From Salinispira pacifica (GTDB taxonomy: Bacteria > Spirochaetota > Spirochaetia > DSM-27196 > Salinispiraceae): a DNA stretch of 64,000 nucleotides. The stretch is from positions 2,147,501-2,211,500 of the forward strand of contig NC_023035.1 in assembly GCF_000507245.1 (NCBI RefSeq). Reading direction: 5' to 3'. Below the pieces are notes generated by a model. The model had not been told where the DNA came from, made no database searches, and saw only the letters and a list, made by a program, of their open reading frames with translations. A program made the translations under genes and the position numbers. This document shows, piece after piece, positions 31,061 to 64,000 of the stretch (the first letter of the stretch is position 1; each line of letters starts with the position of its first letter).

Positions 31061-32571
31061 CTATGCTGCCATATTACCATACCCCAATACCACGGGGAAA
31101 TGAGACTTCGGAATTTTTCGGCTGCGCCGTATAGCTATGATAAAGACGCAAAAAAGATCCATGCGAATCTTTTCCAGGTTCATCACCAGCATGACCATGG
31201 CCACCTGCGTTTCACTGGTCTCAGAAAGCTTTGTCATTAATCGACCCATTGAGTACCGTCGTTTTGCTCTACCGAATGTCCCTTCGACAGCTATTCTATC
31301 CAGCTCATCCTGACGGGCCAGCTTCTTTCGTTCCCGATTTTCTCCACGATCTTTCGGTGGACGACCCAGTGGTGGACCAGATAATCTGATTCCCCGTTTC
31401 TTGCACCAATTTCGGTTGTCCCTGGTGCGGTAAATCTGATCGGCGTGTATTGATTCCGGATACACGCCATATCTCTGTTTGTAATTTTCAGCCTGCATGT
31501 CTAAATCACCAGACTCGTTGTATGGATCCCATGAAAATCGGTCGATAAACATGTACCCGTTAATATTGGCGGATGAAATCTTCATGCCGAACTCAACCGG
31601 GGTACCGGCTTTTCCCCTAACGATGGGCCGAATATGGGGTTGGGAGATACTCACAATCCGGCCCGATATTCGATGATCTTTGGATTCATACATCAGTGCC
31701 TGCTGGCGAAAGACTTCCGAGATCACCAGCATATTCCGGTACTGCTGCCGAGACAGGCTATTCAAGCCTACTACCGTCGCTAATTGCTCTATATGCCGGA
31801 GATTACGGCGTATGTACCCCAGCTGCTTGCGTATTGCCTTGCGAATCTTGTTCTTGCTGGCTTTCCTCTTTTTGATCACCGCCAAAAAATCCTTTCGCGC
31901 TCTCTGCCGGTAGGTTCGGGGTTTTGTCGCCCCCTTGGCCCGTTCTGCGTGAAGAACGTCTATGATGGTTTCCAGTTTTTCCCGGCTCTCATTTAAAAGG
32001 GAAAGGTCTGTGGGATATCGAATATCACCGGGCACGCAGGTGGCATCAATCAGAAGCTTTCCGTTGTTTTCTACCTCAGGATTTTCTTCTTTTTCAGCTT
32101 CCGTATCATCTTCAGTTTTTTTTTACGTTCTTCGGCAATAATCAATTCATTTGCGTGAGTGATCATGTCCATGCTGATTCGCTTTCTGAAATGCACCATC
32201 CCGGATGCACGGCCGGGCAACGAGCGTAGCGAGTGACCAGGCATTGATGGATCAAAAGGAGCCTCATCCTGGTAACCCTGCATTCCGATGAGATATTGCA
32301 GGTAAGGCGTCTCACGAATCTGCTCCACGGTTTCCTCATCTGTAATTCCTAATTTTTCCTTTATAATCAGGGCACCCAATGCTGTACGGAAACGGATCGC
32401 CGGAGCGCCTTGCCCGCTTTCGATAGCAAACTGTGAGGCATATTCTGCTTCTAAATCCTCCCAGGGGATTAAATCGGCAAGCTGAACCCAGCGGTTATTG
32501 GGGTTCAGTTTGCCTCCAAATGGCAGATAGAAATCTTCAAATGAAAGCTGCGTTTTGTCCTCAGTTCTATA
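31061..32571 (-). CDS. IS5-family transposase, two frames (copy 1)
   Basis: The first frame starts at 32571 (MYRTEDKTQLSFEDFYLP) with GGGAGGG upstream, and reaches MVHFRKRISMDMI. The second begins near 32130, encoding (without own start) ENNGKLLIDATCVPGDIRYPTD, and continues with the core and VEGTFGRAKRRYSMGRLM, bearing the catalytic Glu. The two are joined at a run of nine A residues, where a -1 slip restores one protein. Programmed or transcriptional slippage is plausible for this family. A 15-codon insert lies between DPSM and VHFRKR. Confidence 0.8.
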
Positions 32572-32699
32572 CATAATCCCTCCCGCCAAGAAAACAGGTG
32601 CAAGGGTTTTTGCCTGGTTTTCGCAAAAACCGTGCACTGTAGAGTAGACATGCTATCGCCTTCCTTCATCAAGAGAGTTACGAGAGCATGCCCCTCCCA

Positions 32700-32738: not shown

Positions 32739-34046
32739 CTAAACATTCGACCATTGCCAGATGTCTTTGCAAATTTTCGGTCTTGGTATTAATTTCCATA
32801 TCTTTTCAAATGTCTCCCAAATTATCTTGTGCTTCTGGCCTCTACGCCTTAGAACCTTATACAGTGTGTATCTGATGTAAGTGTAGAACTTGTACAGTCC
32901 TTTCAGATTTCCGTTGACCCCGTAGTAATTGTAGTGCCCAACCAGTTTCCGGCTTAGTGCTCTGACAATTTTCATGACAGGTCGATGCATGTTCCATCTG
33001 ATCCACTGTTTTGCGCTCTGGCGTTTAGCCTTCAGCTTCTTCTTGCTTGTCAGGTGCAGGACTGTGTACTTACCAGTCCTTGTACTGGCGTTCACGTGGG
33101 TGAATCCAAGAAAATCAAATGTCTCCTTGGTTCCTTTGTACCTTCCAAACGGAATGATCCTTGTCTTCTCTTCGGCCACCGTTAGCTTGAACTTTGCAAG
33201 CCTTTTCAGCATCACCTCGTAGAATCTTTTCGCATCATCCTCGTACTGGAATAATACCACATAATCATCGGCATATCGGTACAAGTATGTCTCACCCCTC
33301 AGATGCCTTTTTGCCACCTTCTCAAACCACAAGTCGAGTACATAATGAAGATACACGTTAGCCAGCACCGGCGAAATAAGTCCTCCTTGCGGAGTCCCCT
33401 TGTCACTGTCGCTGACGTTCCCATTCTCCATGATCCCCGCCTTGAGAAATCTTACTACATAACGAATGAAATTCTTGTCCTGTATATCATTCTCCAGAAA
33501 CTTCACCAGCCATTCATGGTCAACATTGTCAAAGAACCCTTTGATGTCGGCATCAAGAATATAATTTATCTTCTTCGTCATGATCGTCTGGTTTATTTCC
33601 CGTATCACATCATGACAATTCCGGTTCGGCCTGAACCCATAGGAACAGTCCAGAAACCTCGGTTCATATATCTCTGTCAGCACCTTCGCCATTATTCCTT
33701 GTACCAGTTTATCCTCATACGCCGGAATTCCAAGCGGTCGTACCGTGCCATCCGTCTTGGGTATGTATGTTCTTCTCACCGCCTGCGGTCTGTAACTGAA
33801 GGATTTCATCCGTCCAAGCAATGCATCCACATGCTCTTCCAGTCCGGACTCATAGCTCTCCTTCGTCGCTCCGTCTATGCCTGCGGCTTTTCCTCTGACC
33901 TGCGCCCGATGCTCTGCTTTCAGGTTCTCCCTGTTGACATAGTGCATGAGCGTCTGCATCTTCGCGTGACTCTCCGACAACCTCCTCAACTCCCCATAGC
34001 TGTTTTCCACTCTTTCAGAACCTCCAGTGTTCCTGGTGTTGGCCAC
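32739..34046 (-). CDS. ltrA: Group II intron reverse transcriptase/maturase
   Basis: This 435-residue protein has the RT blocks in order: IPKTDGTVRPLGIPAYEDKLVQ, YGFRPNRNCHD, DADIKGFFDNVDHEWL, GTPQGGLISPVLAN, the catalytic YADDYVVLF, and DFLGF. A maturase X domain follows (LVGHYNYYGVNGNLKGL). No HNH endonuclease domain is seen at the C-terminus, so mobility probably uses nascent strands at replication forks. It is intact and lies fully inside the intron. Confidence 0.95.
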   Translation of the reverse strand: MANTRNTGGSERVENSYGELRRLSESHAKMQTLMHYVNRENLKAEHRAQVRGKAAGIDGATKESYESGLEEHVDALLGRMKSFSYRPQAVRRTYIPKTDGTVRPLGIPAYEDKLVQGIMAKVLTEIYEPRFLDCSYGFRPNRNCHDVIREINQTIMTKKINYILDADIKGFFDNVDHEWLVKFLENDIQDKNFIRYVVRFLKAGIMENGNVSDSDKGTPQGGLISPVLANVYLHYVLDLWFEKVAKRHLRGETYLYRYADDYVVLFQYEDDAKRFYEVMLKRLAKFKLTVAEEKTRIIPFGRYKGTKETFDFLGFTHVNASTRTGKYTVLHLTSKKKLKAKRQSAKQWIRWNMHRPVMKIVRALSRKLVGHYNYYGVNGNLKGLYKFYTYIRYTLYKVLRRRGQKHKIIWETFEKIWKLIPRPKICKDIWQWSNV

Positions 34047-38321: not shown

Positions 38322-39979
38322 GGGCCTCCTGAAAAAACCCTATGCTGCCATATTACCATACCCCAATACCACGGGGAAATGAGACTTCGTAATTTTTCGG
38401 CTGCGTAGCATAGCTATGATAAAGACGTAAAAAAGATCCTTCCGAATCTTTTCCAGGTTCATCACCAGCATGATCATGGCCACCTGCGATTCACTGGTCT
38501 CAGCAAGCTTTGTCATTAAACGACCCATTGAGTACCGTCGTTTTGCTCTGCCAAATGTCCCTTCGACAGCTATTCTATCCAGCTCATCCTGACGAGCCAG
38601 CTTCTTTCGTTCCCGATTTTCACCACGATCTTTCGGTGGACGACCAAGCGGCGGACCGGATAATCTGATTCCCCGTTCCTTGCACCAATTCCGGTTGCCC
38701 CTGGTGCGGTAAATCTGATCGGCGTGTATTGATTCCGGATACACACCATATCTGTGCCTGTACTTTTCAGCCTGCATGACTAAATCACCAGACTCGTTGT
38801 ATGGATCCCATGAACAGCGATCGATAAACATGTACCCGTCAATATTGGCGGATGAAATCTTCATGCCGAACTCAACCGGGGTACCGGCTTTTCCCCTGAC
38901 GATGGGTCGAATATGGGGTTGGGAGATACTCACAATCCGGCCCGATATTCGATGATCTTTGGATTCATACATCAGTGCCTGCTGGCGAAAGACTTCCGAG
39001 ATAACCAGCATATTCCGGTACTGTTTCCGTGACAGGCTTTTCAAACCGACACCTGCTGCTAATTGCTCTATATGCCGGAGATTACGGCGTATGTACCCCA
39101 GCTGCTTGCGTATTGCCTTGCGCATCTTGTTCTTGCTTGCTCTGCGCTTTTTGATGACCGCCAAAAAATCCTTTCGCGCTTTCTGCCGGTAGGTTCGGGG
39201 TTTTGTCGCCCCTTGGCCCGTTTTGCGTGAAGAACGTCTATGATGGTTTCCAGTTTTTCCCGGCTCTCGTTTAAAATCGAAAGATCGGTGGGATATCGAA
39301 TATCACCGGGTACGCAGGTGGCATCAATCAGAAGCTTTCCGTTGTTTTCTACCTCAGGATTTTCTTCTTTTTCAGCTTCCGTATCATCTTCAGTTTTTTT
39401 TACGTTCTTCGGCAATAATCAATTCATTTGCGTGAGTGATCATGTCCATGCTGATTCGCTTTCTGAAATGAACCATCCCGGATGCACGGCCGGGCAACGA
39501 GCGTAGCGAGTGACCAGGCATTGATGGATCAAAAGGAGTCTCATCTTGGTACCCCTGCATTCCGATGAGATATTGCAGGTAAGGCGTCTCACGAATCTGC
39601 TCCACGGTTTCCTCATCTGTAATTCCTAATTTTTCCTTTATAATCAGGGCACCCAATGCTGTACGGAAACGGATCGCCGGAGCGCCTTGCCCGCTTTCGA
39701 TAGCAAACTGTGAGGCGTATTCTGCTTCTAAATCTTCCCAGGGAATTAAATCAGCAAGCTGAACCCAGCGGTTATTGGGGTTCAGTTTGCCTCCAAATGG
39801 GAGATAGAAATCTTCAAATGAAAGCTGCGTTTTGTCCTCAGTTCTATACATAATCCCTCCCGCCAAGAAAACAGGTGCAAGGGTTTTTGCCTGGTTTTCG
39901 CAAAAACCGTGCACTTCATACACAAATCCTAGCAGTATTTCATTTATATGTATGGGGTTAAGGTTTTTTCAGGAGGCCC
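38322..39979 (-). mobile_element. IS5-family element, copy 2
   Basis: The same ends (GGGCCTCCTGAAAAAACC) and flanking TA as copy 1; length 1658. It lacks the intron and so gives the empty intron site. It lies between a TATAAT-like box and the IS1380 transposase, separating that gene from its likely promoter. Confidence 0.92.
38340..39851 (-). pseudogene. IS5-family transposase, two frameshifts (copy 2)
   Basis: It starts at 39851 (MYRTEDK). Relative to copy 1 the A-run after EERKK has eight rather than nine A residues, and a C-run near 39212 has four rather than five C residues. The reading therefore breaks twice (frames 39390-39851, 39068-39415, 38340-39164). The second break has no known slippage explanation, so this copy is probably inactive. 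The 15-codon insert after DPSM is present here too. Confidence 0.82.
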
Positions 39980-41322: not shown

Positions 41323-41582
41323 ATCAGGAGCACGTGCTCAAACCGTGCCATGGGATACGTATGCCCTCATATGAATGTCGGGTTACAATCTTCCATTAAA
41401 ACCAGGAATAACTTGAGTACCAGGGTACCAATAAGTACCGGGTAAGCACGAAGTGTCAGGATGTACTGAAATGACTGGCTTATCGGACTTATCCAAGAGG
41501 GATCTGCGCGATCTTATACGGATTCAGGTAAGTATTACTCTCAGAAAACAAACTGCATGATAGGTCCTGAGCGAGGAACTCC

Positions 41583-44029
41583 ATGAGACGAAATCTGATC
41601 GTCAAAACAAGAAATCTGGCCGGAAATGCTTCAGTTCTGATTCTCATCGGCATGGTATCAGCTTTGCTTTTCATCGGCTGCGGTAGTGCGGCTGAATCGG
41701 CATCAGAAGGCCAGTCGAACACCAGGGTAGTCGAGCAGGAGTTGGAAGCCATAGCGGTATCACCGGAGTCACCGGCAGTCGTAGTTTTTCTGCTCGGGGA
41801 AGTGGAGGTCTACCGTGATGGAACCTGGTCTTCTCTGGAAATCGGCAGTCAGCTTCGTGAATCGGACCGGGTGAGAACCGGCCCGGCTGCCGGCCTGGAA
41901 ATCCAGTTGGCTGATCTGGCGCTCATCGTCCTTGAGAACAGTACCGAAATACTGCTTCGGAGCATTAACATTCGGGACGGGTTAACCTCGGGTGAGGCGG
42001 AGCTGCTGGGCGGGACCATTGTCAGCAAAGTGAGAGCCCTTTCGGAACAAGAGAGTTTCAGGATTCGTGGAAGGACCCGACTTCCGGGGTCAGGGGTACG
42101 ACGTTCTCGGTTCAATCGGATGAGACCGGATCAACCAGGGTCGCCGTCCTTGAAGGGGCGGTCGCTGTTCTACCATCTCCGGAAGCCCTCGATGAGGCAC
42201 TGGGAATCCTTGAGGATGAGGATCAAGGGGAAGCCGTCCGAGGAGAAATTGAACGGAACGCCGAAGCGCTTGTCGCGGGTTCATCGATCGAGATCAGCCC
42301 CCGGCAGGCCGATGAATCGGCCAGGGCTTTCGCGGTACTCCGAAACGGCATTCAGGCGTCATTGAACGCAGAGGGGGATGTGCTCCAGAACATTCAAACG
42401 AATATCCGGGAAACTCTCAGCACCTTGAACGAGCAGGCTCCAGCGTTAGAACCCATTTCTGAAGAGCAACGGGAATTGCTGGAGAAAACTGAGAGGAGGA
42501 ATTTCATCCGAATCTTCGGAGCTGAAACCGCGGAAGCATCTGATCCCGGGGTTCTCATCCCCGTCGTGATCAGCGCCAGTCCGGCAGGATCCGTGATTTT
42601 CATCGACGGAGAACGCCGTGGGGTCAATTCGCTTTCCCTCCTGAGCGATCCCGGATCAGAAATCAGGATTGAGGTTCGTGCGGATGGTTTCGAATCCTTT
42701 GTTCAGGATCTGATGCTTGGGGATGAACAGGGGATTTCGCTGAATGTCAGCCTTGAGTCATCACCTCAAGCTACGGATACCGGCGCATCCGATGATTCCG
42801 ACAGTCCCGCGAATCCCGAACAGGACTCGGAGAATGCCGACACGGATGAAACCGCAGGGGAGACTACGGGTGGGCAGCAGGCAGCAACTGACGACCCAGA
42901 GGAAACGCCGGAAACTGAGGCCGCGCAGGAAACAGCGCGAACGGCGAATGTCGGAGATGCTCCGGGAGAATCATCAGGGGAAAACAATGAACCGTTGGCC
43001 CTCGGTGCGCTTCAAATCAAAGTCAGCGATTCGCCAATCAGCACCGCCCTGGTAAGCGACGGAGTTCGGGTGTATGCCGCGGATCAAAATGGAACCGTCT
43101 ATGCCCTGGACAGCGAGGGACGCTTGATTTGGCGGACTCCAACCGGAAACCGCTCGAACAACCGAAACCTCCTGGTGGTTTCCCAAAATGATTTGTATTT
43201 CCAGGGAACCGAGGAACTGCTGCTGTTATCGGCGCGGGATGGGAGCATCATCGCCCGCAGGAATCTGGGCGACGCGTCCGCGTCGCGGCTTGGCCGCCAT
43301 CCCGCACTTCGGGGGGAACAGGTATTTATCCCAACAGACAACGGATATCTGCGCTTCAGAACCGGAAGCCTCGATCGGATCGATGTGACCGATCCTTTGT
43401 TTGCCGAAAGACGGAGCACCCAATCGAACTTTCGCGCCACCCCGGCTTTCTGGCAGGACGAGGTGATCCTGGTCGATACAGAGGGAACAATTTTCCGCTA
43501 CGATCCCCGGCGGGGACGCATTATCGCCGGCATGGAATCTGGTCTTCGGGAAATTACGGGGATGCAGCCCTTGGTAACTGGAAACCGCGTATTTCTGGCC
43601 GATTCCCGGGGAAATATCGTCGCCGTAGCCCTGCCCGAGTTGGAGGTTCTCTGGAGAAGTTCCATGGAGGGCGGCGTGTTTTTCCAGCCGGTATGGACTC
43701 CCCTCGGCATCTTCGCATATAGCCGGGAAGCCCGGTTGGTCAAACGCTTCGATGCGCGCAGCGGTGAAAATACCGAGAATTGGGGAAACGTTTCCGCCCC
43801 TCCGTTCTGGCTGGAAGGGTTTATTTTGATACCCAACAGCACCGGCGGCCTTGATGTGGCGAATCTCGAGCTCAACTGGATTCATGCGAATATTCCGTTT
43901 CCGGATATCATCAGCGCCAGACCAGTCAGGCTCGAAAACCGAATTTTTCTGGGCTCCAGGCGCGGAAACATATATGTACTGAACATTCCCAGGATCATCG
44001 AAGAGGCCAGAGCGAATCCTCGACCCTGA
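41583..44029 (+). pseudogene. FecR-PEGA-beta-propeller lipoprotein, one frameshift
   Basis: The first frame (41583 to about 42076) has a lipobox (LLFIGCG) and the first half of a FecR domain (GEVEVYRDGTW, SDRVRTGPAAGLEIQL). The second frame continues with PTSGVRGTTFSV and TRVAVLEGAVAVLP. It then has a helical part, a PEGA domain (PAGSVIFIDGERRG), an acidic low-complexity linker, and a PQQ-like beta-propeller (YAADQNGTVYALDSEGRLIW and repeats). Adding one C to the CCC at 42076 would restore about 815 residues. It could be an envelope protein linked to surface sensing or assembly. True decay or read error cannot be told apart. Confidence 0.78.
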
Positions 44030-44067
44030 TCCATGAATTATTGGTGGAATTCAGACAGAATTTTCTC

Positions 44068-44108
44068 ATATGTGAGGCTCGTATAACTTATATTTCAGCC
44101 TCACATAT
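44068..44108. repeat. Inverted repeat upstream of the ABC exporter operon
   Basis: Perfect 12-base arms ATATGTGAGGCT and AGCCTCACATAT are separated by 17 bases, ending 15 bases before the first ABC gene. There is no T-run after it, so an operator or RNA hairpin is more likely than a terminator. Confidence 0.5.
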
Positions 44109-44122
44109 TCTAAGCTTAGGGC

Positions 44123-46198
44123 ATGAGCGTTTCCAGAAGCCTTCTCAAAGCCATGATGCTTATTCTCGGCCTGATATTCACCGCCGTAGGGGTCGTCGGC
44201 GTATTCCTGCCCTTCCTCCCGACCACCCCGTTCCTGCTCGTAGCCGCCGGTCTGTTCTTGCGTTCCTCCGAGAGCCTACATCGGAAGCTGATGAATCATC
44301 CCAAATTCGGACCGGCGATACGACGGATTCAGGAGGGAAAGGGCATCAGCCTGCGGACCAAAATTCTCAGTTCCCTGATCGCGGGATCCATGATACTGGC
44401 ATTCGCGATCTGGGGAACCGATAGCCTTCATTTGCGCATTTTTCTCGGCGTGATTATCGTCGCAAAGCTGGTGACCATGGCGGTACTTCCGACGTATCGC
44501 CCGGATACTGATGAATCGGGCGAACGCCCCGTGCGGAGCAAAGCGTTTCGGATCCAAGCTCCCCGGTTGTTGACCCTGCTGGTGTTCGCCGCCGGCAGCG
44601 CGTTCGTCCTGATCCAGGTACTGTTCGCCCTGGAACTCGGACGATGGAGCATCTCCCTCATCGGGGGGGTGACGGTGTTTCCCCTGGCATTGTTGGCCTA
44701 TTCGGCGATTCGATGGGTCCTGATCATGGCAAATCGCTTCCTGGGGGGGATAATTTCCCGGGGAGTCAGAATTAAAACCCGACGCCGGCTCCTGGCAGCC
44801 ATCGCCGAGGGCGGGGCGGAAGCGGTTCGAGAAAAAGGGATCGGGAACTACCAGGAAATGCTCAGCGAACGCATCGAATCCCTCGATCCAATGTACAGTC
44901 TGTTCCTCCCCCAGCTTTTTATCGGAATCATTTCACCGATCGCAGTCATCGCGGTGATCATGACCTATGACCGGTATACCGCCTTGATGCTCGCTGCGGT
45001 GCTGCCGGTCACCCCCCTTATCCTGGGGCTATTGGCGAGGAATTTCGCCCGGGTCGGGAAGCAGTATTCCCGATCCGCAGCGGAACTCGGCGCATGGTAC
45101 GTGGAGAGCATCAGGGCGCTTCCCACCCTGGCCGTCTTCCAGCGAATCAACAGTTATCGCTTACGACTGGCCAAAACCAGTGGTACTTTGAAGGATACGA
45201 CTATCAAACTGCTCACGGTCAACCAACTTTCGATTCTTCTGGTAGAAGTGTTCTTCTCCCTGGCTTTGGTGGCCTTCGCGACATTCCTGGGAGTTCGGCG
45301 TTTTCAATCGGGTTTTCTGCCGGGTGCATTCGCCCTGGCCGTCCCCTTCCTGACGATCGAACTGATCCGCCCCATCAATCTCGTGGGGGCGTTTTTCTTT
45401 GCCGGAGCCGCAGGGCGCCAGTCGAAAAAAATGATCGAGGCGGAAATTAACGAACTGGAACGGCTAAACCGCCCGATCCGTATTGAAGCGTCAGGTTCCC
45501 CCGATGACAACAGACATGCTCCTGAGTCGATTGAAGGCAGTCCGGGTCTGATAATCAGGGAGCTCAGCTTCGCATACCCGTCCAATCCCCATCACCGAGT
45601 ACTGGATGGTTTTTCCCTTTCGCTGAAACGGGGTGAAATCATCGGTATCCGGGGGCCCAGCGGCTCAGGTAAGAGCACCCTCGCCAAAATGATCCTCGGG
45701 TATCACCGTCCCCAACGGGGAAGCATCGTACTGGACGGCAGGGAACTCAGCGATCTGCCCCGAAACGAACGGATGAGCCTGGTGGGTTATCTGCCCCAGC
45801 GTCCGTACCTGTTCGGCCGCACTCTCAGGGAGAACTTAGTGATGGGTCGTCCCGATCCGGGAGATGAGGTTCTTCAGAGCGCCTTGAGGGCAGCGGGTCT
45901 GAATTCCTTCGCCGAGCGTGGTCTGGATTCGCCCGTCGGAGAAAATGCGGCACAGGTTTCCGGCGGTGAACGAATGCGGCTGGCCCTGGCTCGGGTGCTT
46001 CTCAGCGGAGCGAGTTACATCGTTCTGGACGAGCCGACGGCGGAAATCGACGGCATTACCGAACTGGGTATCTGGCAGGAATTGCGGCGCACCGGGGCGG
46101 GAATTATCGCCATCGCCCACCGAAAACGGACACTGAGTGCCTGCGATTCAGTGGTCGATATGCCAGCGGTCGCCAGAATAAGCGGGGTACGATCATGA
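44123..46198 (+). CDS. DUF454-CydD-like ABC exporter half
   Basis: This 691-residue protein has two parts. Residues 1 to about 120 form a DUF454 (YbaN-like) membrane domain with GVVGVFLPFLPTTPFLLVAA and LMNHPKFGPAIRRIQEGKGI. From about 145 there is a six-helix ABC export domain (YVESIRALPTLAVFQRIN) and then the ATPase with GPSGSGKST, VSGGE and YIVLDEPTAEID. The transporter part is most like CydD, which with CydC exports cysteine and glutathione. DUF454 is normally a separate small protein, so the fusion is unusual. No cydAB is nearby. Confidence 0.82.
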   Translation: MSVSRSLLKAMMLILGLIFTAVGVVGVFLPFLPTTPFLLVAAGLFLRSSESLHRKLMNHPKFGPAIRRIQEGKGISLRTKILSSLIAGSMILAFAIWGTDSLHLRIFLGVIIVAKLVTMAVLPTYRPDTDESGERPVRSKAFRIQAPRLLTLLVFAAGSAFVLIQVLFALELGRWSISLIGGVTVFPLALLAYSAIRWVLIMANRFLGGIISRGVRIKTRRRLLAAIAEGGAEAVREKGIGNYQEMLSERIESLDPMYSLFLPQLFIGIISPIAVIAVIMTYDRYTALMLAAVLPVTPLILGLLARNFARVGKQYSRSAAELGAWYVESIRALPTLAVFQRINSYRLRLAKTSGTLKDTTIKLLTVNQLSILLVEVFFSLALVAFATFLGVRRFQSGFLPGAFALAVPFLTIELIRPINLVGAFFFAGAAGRQSKKMIEAEINELERLNRPIRIEASGSPDDNRHAPESIEGSPGLIIRELSFAYPSNPHHRVLDGFSLSLKRGEIIGIRGPSGSGKSTLAKMILGYHRPQRGSIVLDGRELSDLPRNERMSLVGYLPQRPYLFGRTLRENLVMGRPDPGDEVLQSALRAAGLNSFAERGLDSPVGENAAQVSGGERMRLALARVLLSGASYIVLDEPTAEIDGITELGIWQELRRTGAGIIAIAHRKRTLSACDSVVDMPAVARISGVRS

Positions 46199-47910
46199 AC
46201 ATGCCGCTGATTCGGATGCTCGCCTTCATCAGAGGCCATATCTACAAAATCGCCCTCAGTTCCCTTTTACGGATCGTCAATGTGTTCGCCGGCTCGGCCC
46301 TGTTCGGATTAAGCGGGTACCTGCTTGCCGACGTGCTGATTTCCCGACGTCAGCCCCAGAGTGCCCTCTGGATCTCCCTTGCGGTCATCGGGATTTTAAA
46401 AGCCGCCGCCCGATACGCCGAGCAGATCAGTGGGCATAACGCCGCATTCAATATTCTCGACATCCTTCGACAGAAATTATTCCACGCATTCAGCGAGAAA
46501 GACGCCGACAGCCTGGCCAGCAGCCGAACCGGAGATCTGGCGGTCAGGGCCATGGGGGACGTGGATCTTATCGAGATTTTCTATGCCCACACGTTGGCTC
46601 CGGCCCTGAGCGCGGTACTTTTTATCCTCATCGCCGCAGCGGCAGCCGCAGTTCTTGTGAGTCCGGTTGCCGCCGCCGCAGTGGCCGCCATGTACCTCTG
46701 CGCTGGAATCGGCATCCCCGTCTTGTTCCAGGCCGCATCATCTTCGGCGGCACAACGATATCGCGGAGCGCAGGCGGCCCTCAGCGCGGATCTCAGCGAA
46801 TCGCTGGCGGGCATCCAGGATCTTCAGGCATTCGCCGCCGTTGATGCCGAGCAAGCCCGCCATCGCCGCAGCGCCGAGAAGGCATACGGGCTGAACCAGG
46901 GCCTGCAGATGCTCAGCGGTTTTCGGGACGTCCTGGTCGACCTGCTGCTTGGCACATCCCTGATCGTCCTCATTTTTCTGGCAGCCCGGGAAAATCTGCT
47001 GGGGACCGATCCTCTCTCCTGGGCCCTGGTCTGCGCGCTGGCCGGCGGATTCAGCGCCATTCTGGGCATCAATCGGGCGGTGGATGACCTGCCCAAAAGC
47101 CGGGCCGCAGCGCAACGCATCCTGCAGGTACTGGATGAACCCTCAGATTCCCCTGCCTGGACCGCCTCTTCGGCGGACGGAGACCCCTCGGGATATGATA
47201 TTTCCGTGGAGAATCTCAGTTTCAGCTACGGCAATAATCAGGGCATTCGGGATATTAGCTTCCGCCTGAAGCAGGGCGAGCACCTGTTGATCACCGGCCA
47301 GACCGGTTCGGGTAAGACCACCCTGGCCACCGCCATCCTGGGGCTGCTCGAACCCGAAGGCGGATGCGTTCGCATCGGAGGGATCGATGTGAGATCCATC
47401 GAGCCTTCCAGGCGCTTCGCCCTGATCACCGCGGCCCGTCAGAACCTGATGCTGGTTAGGGGAAGCGCCATGGAGAACATCGAGCTCGGCGTCCCCGCCG
47501 AAGGGACCCCGGTACCCGGGCATGCGCTGGAAATCGCCGAAATCCCGCAGCTGATGACGGAACTGCCCGATGGGGAAGACACGTTAGTGAGCGGCACCGA
47601 TGAGCAGATTTCCGGCGGTCAGCGCCGGCGAATCGGACTTGCCGCTGCCCTCGCCCGTTCGGCCAGGATCATGGTACTCGATGAAGCCTTCGCCGGGCTT
47701 GATGACGATTTGAGGAAGCGGATCCGCGGCAAGCTCCTGGACTGGGCCCGCAGAGAAGGAATCAGCATCATAGAGCTCTCCCACGATCTGAGCGACAGTG
47801 TGGATACCGCTCGGATCGCCGTACTGGCCGGCGGCTCGCTGATCGAATCAGGCAGCTATGATGAGCTGATGGAGCGCCGAGGCGCATTCTGGGATATGGC
47901 GGTGTTATAG
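46195..47910 (+). CDS. CydC-like ABC exporter half
   Basis: This 571-residue protein has a six-helix membrane domain and an ATPase with TGQTGSGKTT, ISGGQRRR and IMVLDEAFAGLD. The gene starts four bases before the stop of the DUF454-CydD gene, so the two are translated together and should form a heterodimer. It resembles CydC. The substrate is unknown; the B12 operon that converges on it may be only a chance neighbour. The intergenic distance to cobC (convergent) is about 30 bases. Confidence 0.85.
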   Translation: MNMPLIRMLAFIRGHIYKIALSSLLRIVNVFAGSALFGLSGYLLADVLISRRQPQSALWISLAVIGILKAAARYAEQISGHNAAFNILDILRQKLFHAFSEKDADSLASSRTGDLAVRAMGDVDLIEIFYAHTLAPALSAVLFILIAAAAAAVLVSPVAAAAVAAMYLCAGIGIPVLFQAASSSAAQRYRGAQAALSADLSESLAGIQDLQAFAAVDAEQARHRRSAEKAYGLNQGLQMLSGFRDVLVDLLLGTSLIVLIFLAARENLLGTDPLSWALVCALAGGFSAILGINRAVDDLPKSRAAAQRILQVLDEPSDSPAWTASSADGDPSGYDISVENLSFSYGNNQGIRDISFRLKQGEHLLITGQTGSGKTTLATAILGLLEPEGGCVRIGGIDVRSIEPSRRFALITAARQNLMLVRGSAMENIELGVPAEGTPVPGHALEIAEIPQLMTELPDGEDTLVSGTDEQISGGQRRRIGLAAALARSARIMVLDEAFAGLDDDLRKRIRGKLLDWARREGISIIELSHDLSDSVDTARIAVLAGGSLIESGSYDELMERRGAFWDMAVL

Positions 47911-63458: not shown

Positions 63459-64000
63459 GGCCTCCTGAAAAAACCCTATGCTGCCATATTACCATACCCC
63501 AATACCACGGGGAAATGAGACTTCGTAATTTTTCGGCTGCGTAGCATAGCTATGATAAAGACGTAAAAAAGATCCTTCCGAATCTTTTCCATGTTCATCA
63601 CCAGCATGATCATGGCCACCTGCGATTCACTGGTCTCAGCAAGCTTTGTCATTAAACGACCCATTGAGTACCGTCGTTTTGCTCTGCCAAATGTCCCTTC
63701 GACAGCTATTCTATCCAGCTCATCCTGACGAGCCAGCTTCTTTCGTTCCCGATTTTCACCACGATCTTTCGGTGGACGACCAAGCGGCGGACCGGATAAT
63801 CTGATTCCCCGTTCCTTGCACCAATTCCGGTTGCCCCTGGTGCGGTAAATCTGATCGGCGTGTATTGATTCCGGATACACACCATATCTGTGCCTGTACT
63901 TTTCAGCCTGCATGACTAAATCACCAGACTCGTTGTATGGATCCCATGAACAGCGATCGATAAACATGTACCCGTCAATATTGGCGGATGAAATCTTCAT
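63458..64000 (-). mobile_element. IS5-family element, copy 3 (cut by the window edge)
   Basis: It begins with the same end GGGCCTCC after a flanking TA. Over the visible part it is nearly identical to copy 2 and shares its differences from copy 1 (for example YRHRYGVY, NWCKERG). It has the same orientation as copies 1 and 2. Confidence 0.92.
63476..64000 (-). CDS. IS5-family transposase, C-terminal part
   Basis: The last 174 residues of the transposase are visible, with DADQ-like SIHADQIYRT and the catalytic Glu in VEGTFGRAKRRYSMGRLM. It runs out of the window, so the state of the A- and C-runs that are altered in copies 1 and 2 cannot be seen. Compared with copy 2 one residue differs near the end (MNMEKIR for MNLEKIR). 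Confidence 0.88.
   Translation of the reverse strand: MKISSANIDGYMFIDRCSWDPYNESGDLVMQAEKYRHRYGVYPESIHADQIYRTRGNRNWCKERGIRLSGPPLGRPPKDRGENRERKKLARQDELDRIAVEGTFGRAKRRYSMGRLMTKLAETSESQVAMIMLVMNMEKIRKDLFYVFIIAMLRSRKITKSHFPVVLGYGNMAA

Follow-up and report, generated by a model that had tools for sequence, protein, structure and literature searches.

What does a DUF454 domain do on one half of an ATP-binding cassette (ABC) exporter, in a bacterium without cytochrome bd? The question is raised by a locus at positions 44123 to 47910 of the window, the 64,000-nucleotide stretch of the Salinispira pacifica genome analysed here (NC_023035.1, positions 2,147,501 to 2,211,500), where a DUF454 (YbaN) domain is joined to a CydD-like exporter half and followed by a gene for a CydC-like half. 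An earlier reading, made from the letters without database searches (the sequence-only reading), had pointed out this arrangement. At the level of sequence we find the fusion, its partner gene, recurrence of the fusion in other genomes, DUF454 genes near CydDC-type pairs from two superfamily branches, and no cytochrome bd. With about even confidence, we prefer to read the two genes as a heterodimeric ABC transporter of type IV (exporter fold) from the CydDC superfamily, one that is independent of cytochrome bd and has DUF454 as a built-in accessory of its CydD-like half.

The fusion gene (44123-46198, forward strand) is a single open frame for one protein of 691 residues, and Pfam and NCBIfam agree with the sequence-only reading that DUF454 is joined to a CydD-like half in it. 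The DUF454 domain (PF04304; residues 9-124, 44147-44494, forward strand) matches the full profile, positions 1-115, and scores 107.9 bits where 35.1 would suffice; it is followed by an exporter transmembrane domain (PF00664, residues 165-398) and a nucleotide-binding domain (PF00005, residues 494-640). The top NCBIfam match of the protein is CydD (TIGR02857; 314 bits, E 2.2e-93), short of the equivalog cut-off of 435 bits; residues 152-680 (44576-46162, forward strand) align with TIGR02857 positions 10-529, so that nearly the whole of CydD is there, and both Walker motifs of this part look canonical. The DUF454 domain looks functional, since residues conserved over about 80 relatives are retained (G16, G23, G26, P30, LPTTPF at 32-37, S49, and K80); it misses the YbaN equivalog NF007818 (68.3 versus 163 bits). 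Hydropathy gives one long hydrophobic stretch at residues 1-46 and two more DUF454 peaks ahead of the first CydD helix.

The CydC-like half, of 571 residues, is encoded directly downstream (46195-47910, forward strand). At 46195-46198 the letters ATGA serve both genes, the start codon of this one overlapping the stop codon of the other; this is the four-base overlap described earlier for the pair. The best NCBIfam match of this half is CydC (TIGR02868; 260.9 bits), below the equivalog cut-off of 329.

The fusion recurs. Among 46 genomes from the same order as S. pacifica, searched with the CydD part, three others have close orthologues (G336, G335, and G313). In G336, a member of the same family, the protein is fused in the same domain order (L103), its CydD part is 50% identical to that of the window, and a CydC-like gene with 46% identity follows; in G335, from another family, the protein is likewise fused in that order (L105) and 46-47% identical. 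Because these homologous fusions keep one domain order, the join is neither chance nor the local assembly error that the sequence-only reading had named as a way in which it might fail. The genome of S. pacifica L21-RPul-D2 (G000), an assembly from long reads at 365x coverage (PMC4511686), is a single contig of 3,782,798 bases. The CydD-like gene of G313 (36% identical) is unfused; a CydC-like gene comes after it and is cut by the contig end (L126), and a second contig opens inside an exporter half, not closely similar to the window CydC-like half, with DUF454 directly after (L111). Most naturally, the two G313 contigs would be parts of one CydD-CydC-DUF454 row. No further orthologue at the same threshold came from a wider set of 393 Spirochaetota genomes, which makes the fusion rare and its distribution patchy; a search of genome contigs for related loci returned solely an unrelated Brevibacillus exporter half.

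As a separate gene, DUF454 is often found close to a CydDC-type pair. The family is present in 96 of 296 Spirochaetota genomes, and in 42 of the 45 whose CydD-like gene scores 345 bits or more, a set from which three genomes above the CydD cut-off were excluded. The two genes lie within 7 kilobases (kb) of each other in 30 of those 42, against 0.38 expected, a count in which most genomes come from two families and so are not independent, though their arrangements differ. Treponeme-type rows read YgbA-CydD-CydC-DUF454 or CydD-CydC-DUF454-YgbA, and several of these unfused cassettes adjoin genes for ExbB, ExbD, TonB, and a TonB-dependent receptor; the Brachyspira type has DUF454, a TetR gene, and then CydD-CydC. 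Beyond Spirochaetota, a Subdoligranulum record (Clostridia) carries CydD-like, CydC-like, YgbA, and DUF454 genes in a row, with proteins 50-59% identical to those of treponemes; this record is unannotated and labelled plasmid, and spread outside the phylum rests on plasmid records. The fusions and adjacencies that the sequence-only reading had proposed to look for elsewhere therefore exist. In the literature searched, ybaN and cydD are not mentioned jointly, and no description of the treponeme/Brachyspira/Subdoligranulum cassette was found.

In trees of exporter halves, built without YbtPQ and IrtAB rows, the CydD-like and CydC-like sequences split into two branches, and the two halves of the window, encoded by adjacent genes, each fall inside their own CydD-type or CydC-type branch. 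A fuller tree makes the fusion lineage sister to true CydD and CydC, with support values of 85 and 88 that lie below the starred level; the unfused DUF454-linked pairs of the treponeme/Brachyspira/Clostridia type form another branch (support 100). The fused DUF454 domains cluster with DUF454 of the same order, apart from those of treponemes and Brachyspira, in an alignment of few columns with weak deep support. Because the fusion lineage and the unfused pairs lie apart, as do their DUF454 sets, the linkage is present in two branches of the superfamily. This distribution suggests that DUF454 was recruited repeatedly; an ancestral linkage followed by losses may also account for it.

Cytochrome bd, for which CydDC is needed in E. 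coli, is missing here. No match to cytochrome bd subunit I (cydA, PF01654) was found in the complete genome G000, and S. pacifica is an aerotolerant fermenter for which cytochromes, respiratory quinones, and terminal oxidases are not predicted (PMC4511686). The absence of cydA and of reported cytochromes excludes, for this organism, the role in cytochrome bd assembly that had been raised for the pair. Also lacking cydA are the 21 other genomes tested because their pair is fused, adjacent, or related, apart from G275 and G230, each of which has a separate cydABDC locus.

An activity without the oxidase could still concern heme: the pair may be a heme or tetrapyrrole exporter or flippase like E. 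coli CydDC, for heme detoxification or delivery. Structures and ATPase assays show heme transport by E. coli CydDC, in which the heme is held between CydC His85 and CydD His312, with CydC Arg81 and Arg136 (PMC10374445, PMC10691846). In our alignments the first axial ligand, His85, corresponds to His81 of the CydC-like half (46435-46437, forward strand) and is His in every CydC-like partner examined. At the position of the second, His312, true CydD has His, as do the unfused pairs of the DUF454 type that were examined, from treponemes, Brachyspira, and others; the fusion protein has Phe426 there instead (45398-45400, forward strand), and Phe is found also in L103, L105, and the unfused G313 protein. 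The CydC-like half of the window further has Gln in place of Arg81 and His in place of Arg136. His85 and a His at position 136 are weak evidence alone, since some unrelated exporter halves have them (His85 in L075_03 and L080_08). Ferrochelatase was not found in G000 at default thresholds, and the lack of reported cytochromes likewise speaks against heme. With ligand positions altered and ferrochelatase missing, heme is an unlikely substrate here; the window pair probably carries something else, and the heme-related export put forward by the sequence-only reading loses favour with one of two axial ligands gone. As an account of the window pair the heme alternative seems to us rather doubtful. 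It more likely fits the unfused, host-associated relatives, for which a heme substrate is plausible.

The TonB neighbours of the unfused cassettes raise another alternative, that the pair imports an iron chelate on an exporter fold, as YbtPQ or IrtAB do, with DUF454 as an accessory. For the CydC-like half, PDB hits include 6p6i, which we take to be the YbtPQ structure, at 1.4e-39, as good as CydC; such E-values fail to separate the exporter-fold families and are functionally uninformative. Since the halves are placed in the CydD and CydC branches (of trees that omit YbtPQ and IrtAB) and G000 gives no match to a TonB-dependent receptor, we consider import unlikely. We think it equally unlikely that DUF454 is merely a stability, targeting, or regulatory domain on an ordinary lipid or drug exporter: its occurrence in several unrelated contexts and fusions would fit, but the repeated linkage to CydD and CydC branches, in two phyla, would be left unexplained. 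Least probable, in our view, is export of a thiol (cysteine or glutathione) to keep the envelope in redox balance, as CydDC used to be understood, here in an aerotolerant fermenter. NCBIfam does title TIGR02857 and TIGR02868 as thiol reductant exporter subunits, and YgbA of the unfused cassettes is a member of the nitric oxide-responsive NsrR regulon in E. coli; both equivalog cut-offs are missed, however, no thiol-specific neighbour was seen, and the ATPase of E. coli CydDC is stimulated by heme, not by thiols (PMC10374445).

That DUF454 and a CydDC-type pair form a module, as the preferred reading of a bd-independent transporter with a built-in accessory has it, is well supported; the steps at the lateral gate and the kind of substrate we infer. 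DUF454 and the ABC pair would share one substrate or belong to one complex. In CydDC the elbow helix of CydD is part of the lateral entry gate and closes it (PMC10374445); since the fusion puts DUF454 at the N-terminal end of the CydD-like half, adjacent to that helix, the domain is probably a membrane neighbour of this gate. There it would deliver, shield, or gate a hydrophobic cofactor or a metal chelate, which the ABC pair would then carry across the inner membrane, driven by ATP. Physiologically, the transporter probably belongs to iron or cofactor homeostasis, because DUF454 genes elsewhere are Fur-regulated or iron-responsive: ybaN of E. coli belongs to the Fur regulon (PMC7157518, PMC10164565), and DUF454 of Avibacterium goes up under iron restriction (PMC7970244). 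DUF454 also co-occurs with genes for heme oxygenase and the type XI secretion system (T11SS), a hemophore-type secretion (PMC12282271), and TonB/ExbBD genes or TonB receptors adjoin YbaN genes in Cetobacterium and Alteromonas. This iron context is drawn from other organisms, through published ybaN/DUF454 regulation and the TonB neighbours of relatives. A more speculative extension, which we offer tentatively, makes DUF454 a dedicated partner of bd-independent CydDC transporters that two branches have acquired; in the fusion branch heme would have been given up as the substrate, and a fermenter without cytochromes would pump a different metal chelate or cofactor, DUF454 being placed at the lateral gate.

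Several results weigh against the transporter with a dedicated DUF454 accessory, or against its iron context. G000 has no TonB-dependent receptor (PF00593, the only Pfam family tried) and no YgbA at default thresholds, and what the unfused cassettes suggest about iron uptake is therefore not simply transferable; a TonB link for S. pacifica was rejected for want of a receptor match. DUF454 also occurs in unrelated settings, namely priC-ybaN-apt of E. coli, upstream of a YkoF operon of the energy-coupling factor (ECF) type in G130, and fused to an aldo/keto reductase. AlphaFold2 run on the fusion protein as a single sequence gave a predicted local distance difference test (pLDDT) of 41 and a predicted template modelling score (pTM) of 0.24, a model that is unusable.

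Further DUF454 genes and exporter pairs were seen during the survey. S. pacifica has a second, stand-alone DUF454 gene (L053:7928-8422; C1 about 3646056) that belongs to another DUF454 subgroup and has no CydDC-type pair near it; elsewhere in the same genome (L075:1584-5852) a gene that by eye encodes a DtxR-like regulator stands directly ahead of another exporter-type ABC pair. In G335 the frame of a second DUF454 ends against what looks by eye like a catalase-peroxidase gene (L106:3203-7092), and in two genomes of the order DUF454 and aldo/keto reductase share one frame, a different architecture (L104:2276-3796, L107:2945-4531). In the G130 locus (L034:3528-7537) the genes after DUF454 are for YkoF, a permease of the ABC_cobalt family, a double ATPase, and CbiQ; this ECF-type operon with YkoF probably serves a thiamine precursor. 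In G273 (L068:5340-12004) ExbB/ExbD/TonB-like genes and a Trep_Strep/CbiQ ECF transporter come after a CydDC-like pair that has no DUF454.

Ahead of the fusion gene lies an inverted repeat with 13-bp arms, CATATGTGAGGCT - 17 nt - AGCCTCACATATT (44067-44109), which ends 13 nt before the ATG and has an RNA fold z of -2.65; it may be an operator or a 5' hairpin. Since the genome has a single copy of the core, we rejected the repeat as the operator of a regulon. The gene upstream of it (41571-44029) had been read as a FecR-PEGA-propeller protein: the beta-propeller stands (a PQQ_2 match in Pfam), FecR and PEGA received no Pfam call, and the reading breaks between 41571-42365 and 41996-44029, two frames that overlap; the frameshift is either real or a sequencing error. 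Downstream, the cobalamin (B12) genes do converge on the pair as had been observed, with Pfam matches for a His_Phos (CobC-like) gene and CobS and later cob genes called from translations. Neither the FecR-propeller gene nor the B12 operon neighbours the orthologous fused pair in L103, and the operon, being convergent and absent there, was rejected as a functional partner. By eye, the window also contains three near-identical transposase-like frames (31061-32637, 38340-39923, and 63476-64000) and a reverse-transcriptase-like frame (32739-34046).

DUF454 is a widespread family of small membrane proteins. The fusion, and the operons in which DUF454 repeatedly joins a single class of ABC transporter, supply a partner, a place in the membrane, and direct tests; for the family this is the first concrete partner that can be tested. 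CydDC-type transporters are thereby separated from cytochrome bd, and because many oxidase-free genomes keep such a pair, the name 'thiol reductant ABC exporter CydDC' that automatic annotation assigns is open to doubt in them.

Among known systems, the siderophore importers YbtPQ and IrtAB share the heterodimeric exporter fold with the window pair, and an iron context is suggested for its relatives; the window pair comes without a siderophore or receptor gene. E. coli YbaN belongs to the same Pfam family (PF04304), the motif residues of which are retained in the window domain, but YbaN is a stand-alone inner-membrane protein of 125 residues encoded next to priC and apt, away from cydDC, and the window domain scores below its equivalog. 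The treponeme/Brachyspira/Subdoligranulum cassette has the same two partners and lacks cytochrome bd where tested; unlike the window locus it is unfused, belongs to another branch of the superfamily, mostly keeps both axial His residues, and often has YgbA and TonB genes. Like E. coli CydDC, the window pair consists of one half from the CydD branch and one from the CydC branch, encoded by adjacent genes, and it has the conserved CydC His85 and near-full-length matches to TIGR02857 and TIGR02868; it differs in having DUF454, sub-equivalog scores, Phe for CydD His312, a genome without cytochrome bd, and a position on a sister branch. Judged by its sequence, the window pair stands beside, not inside, true CydDC, and is a transporter of the CydDC superfamily with DUF454 built in, not CydDC proper.

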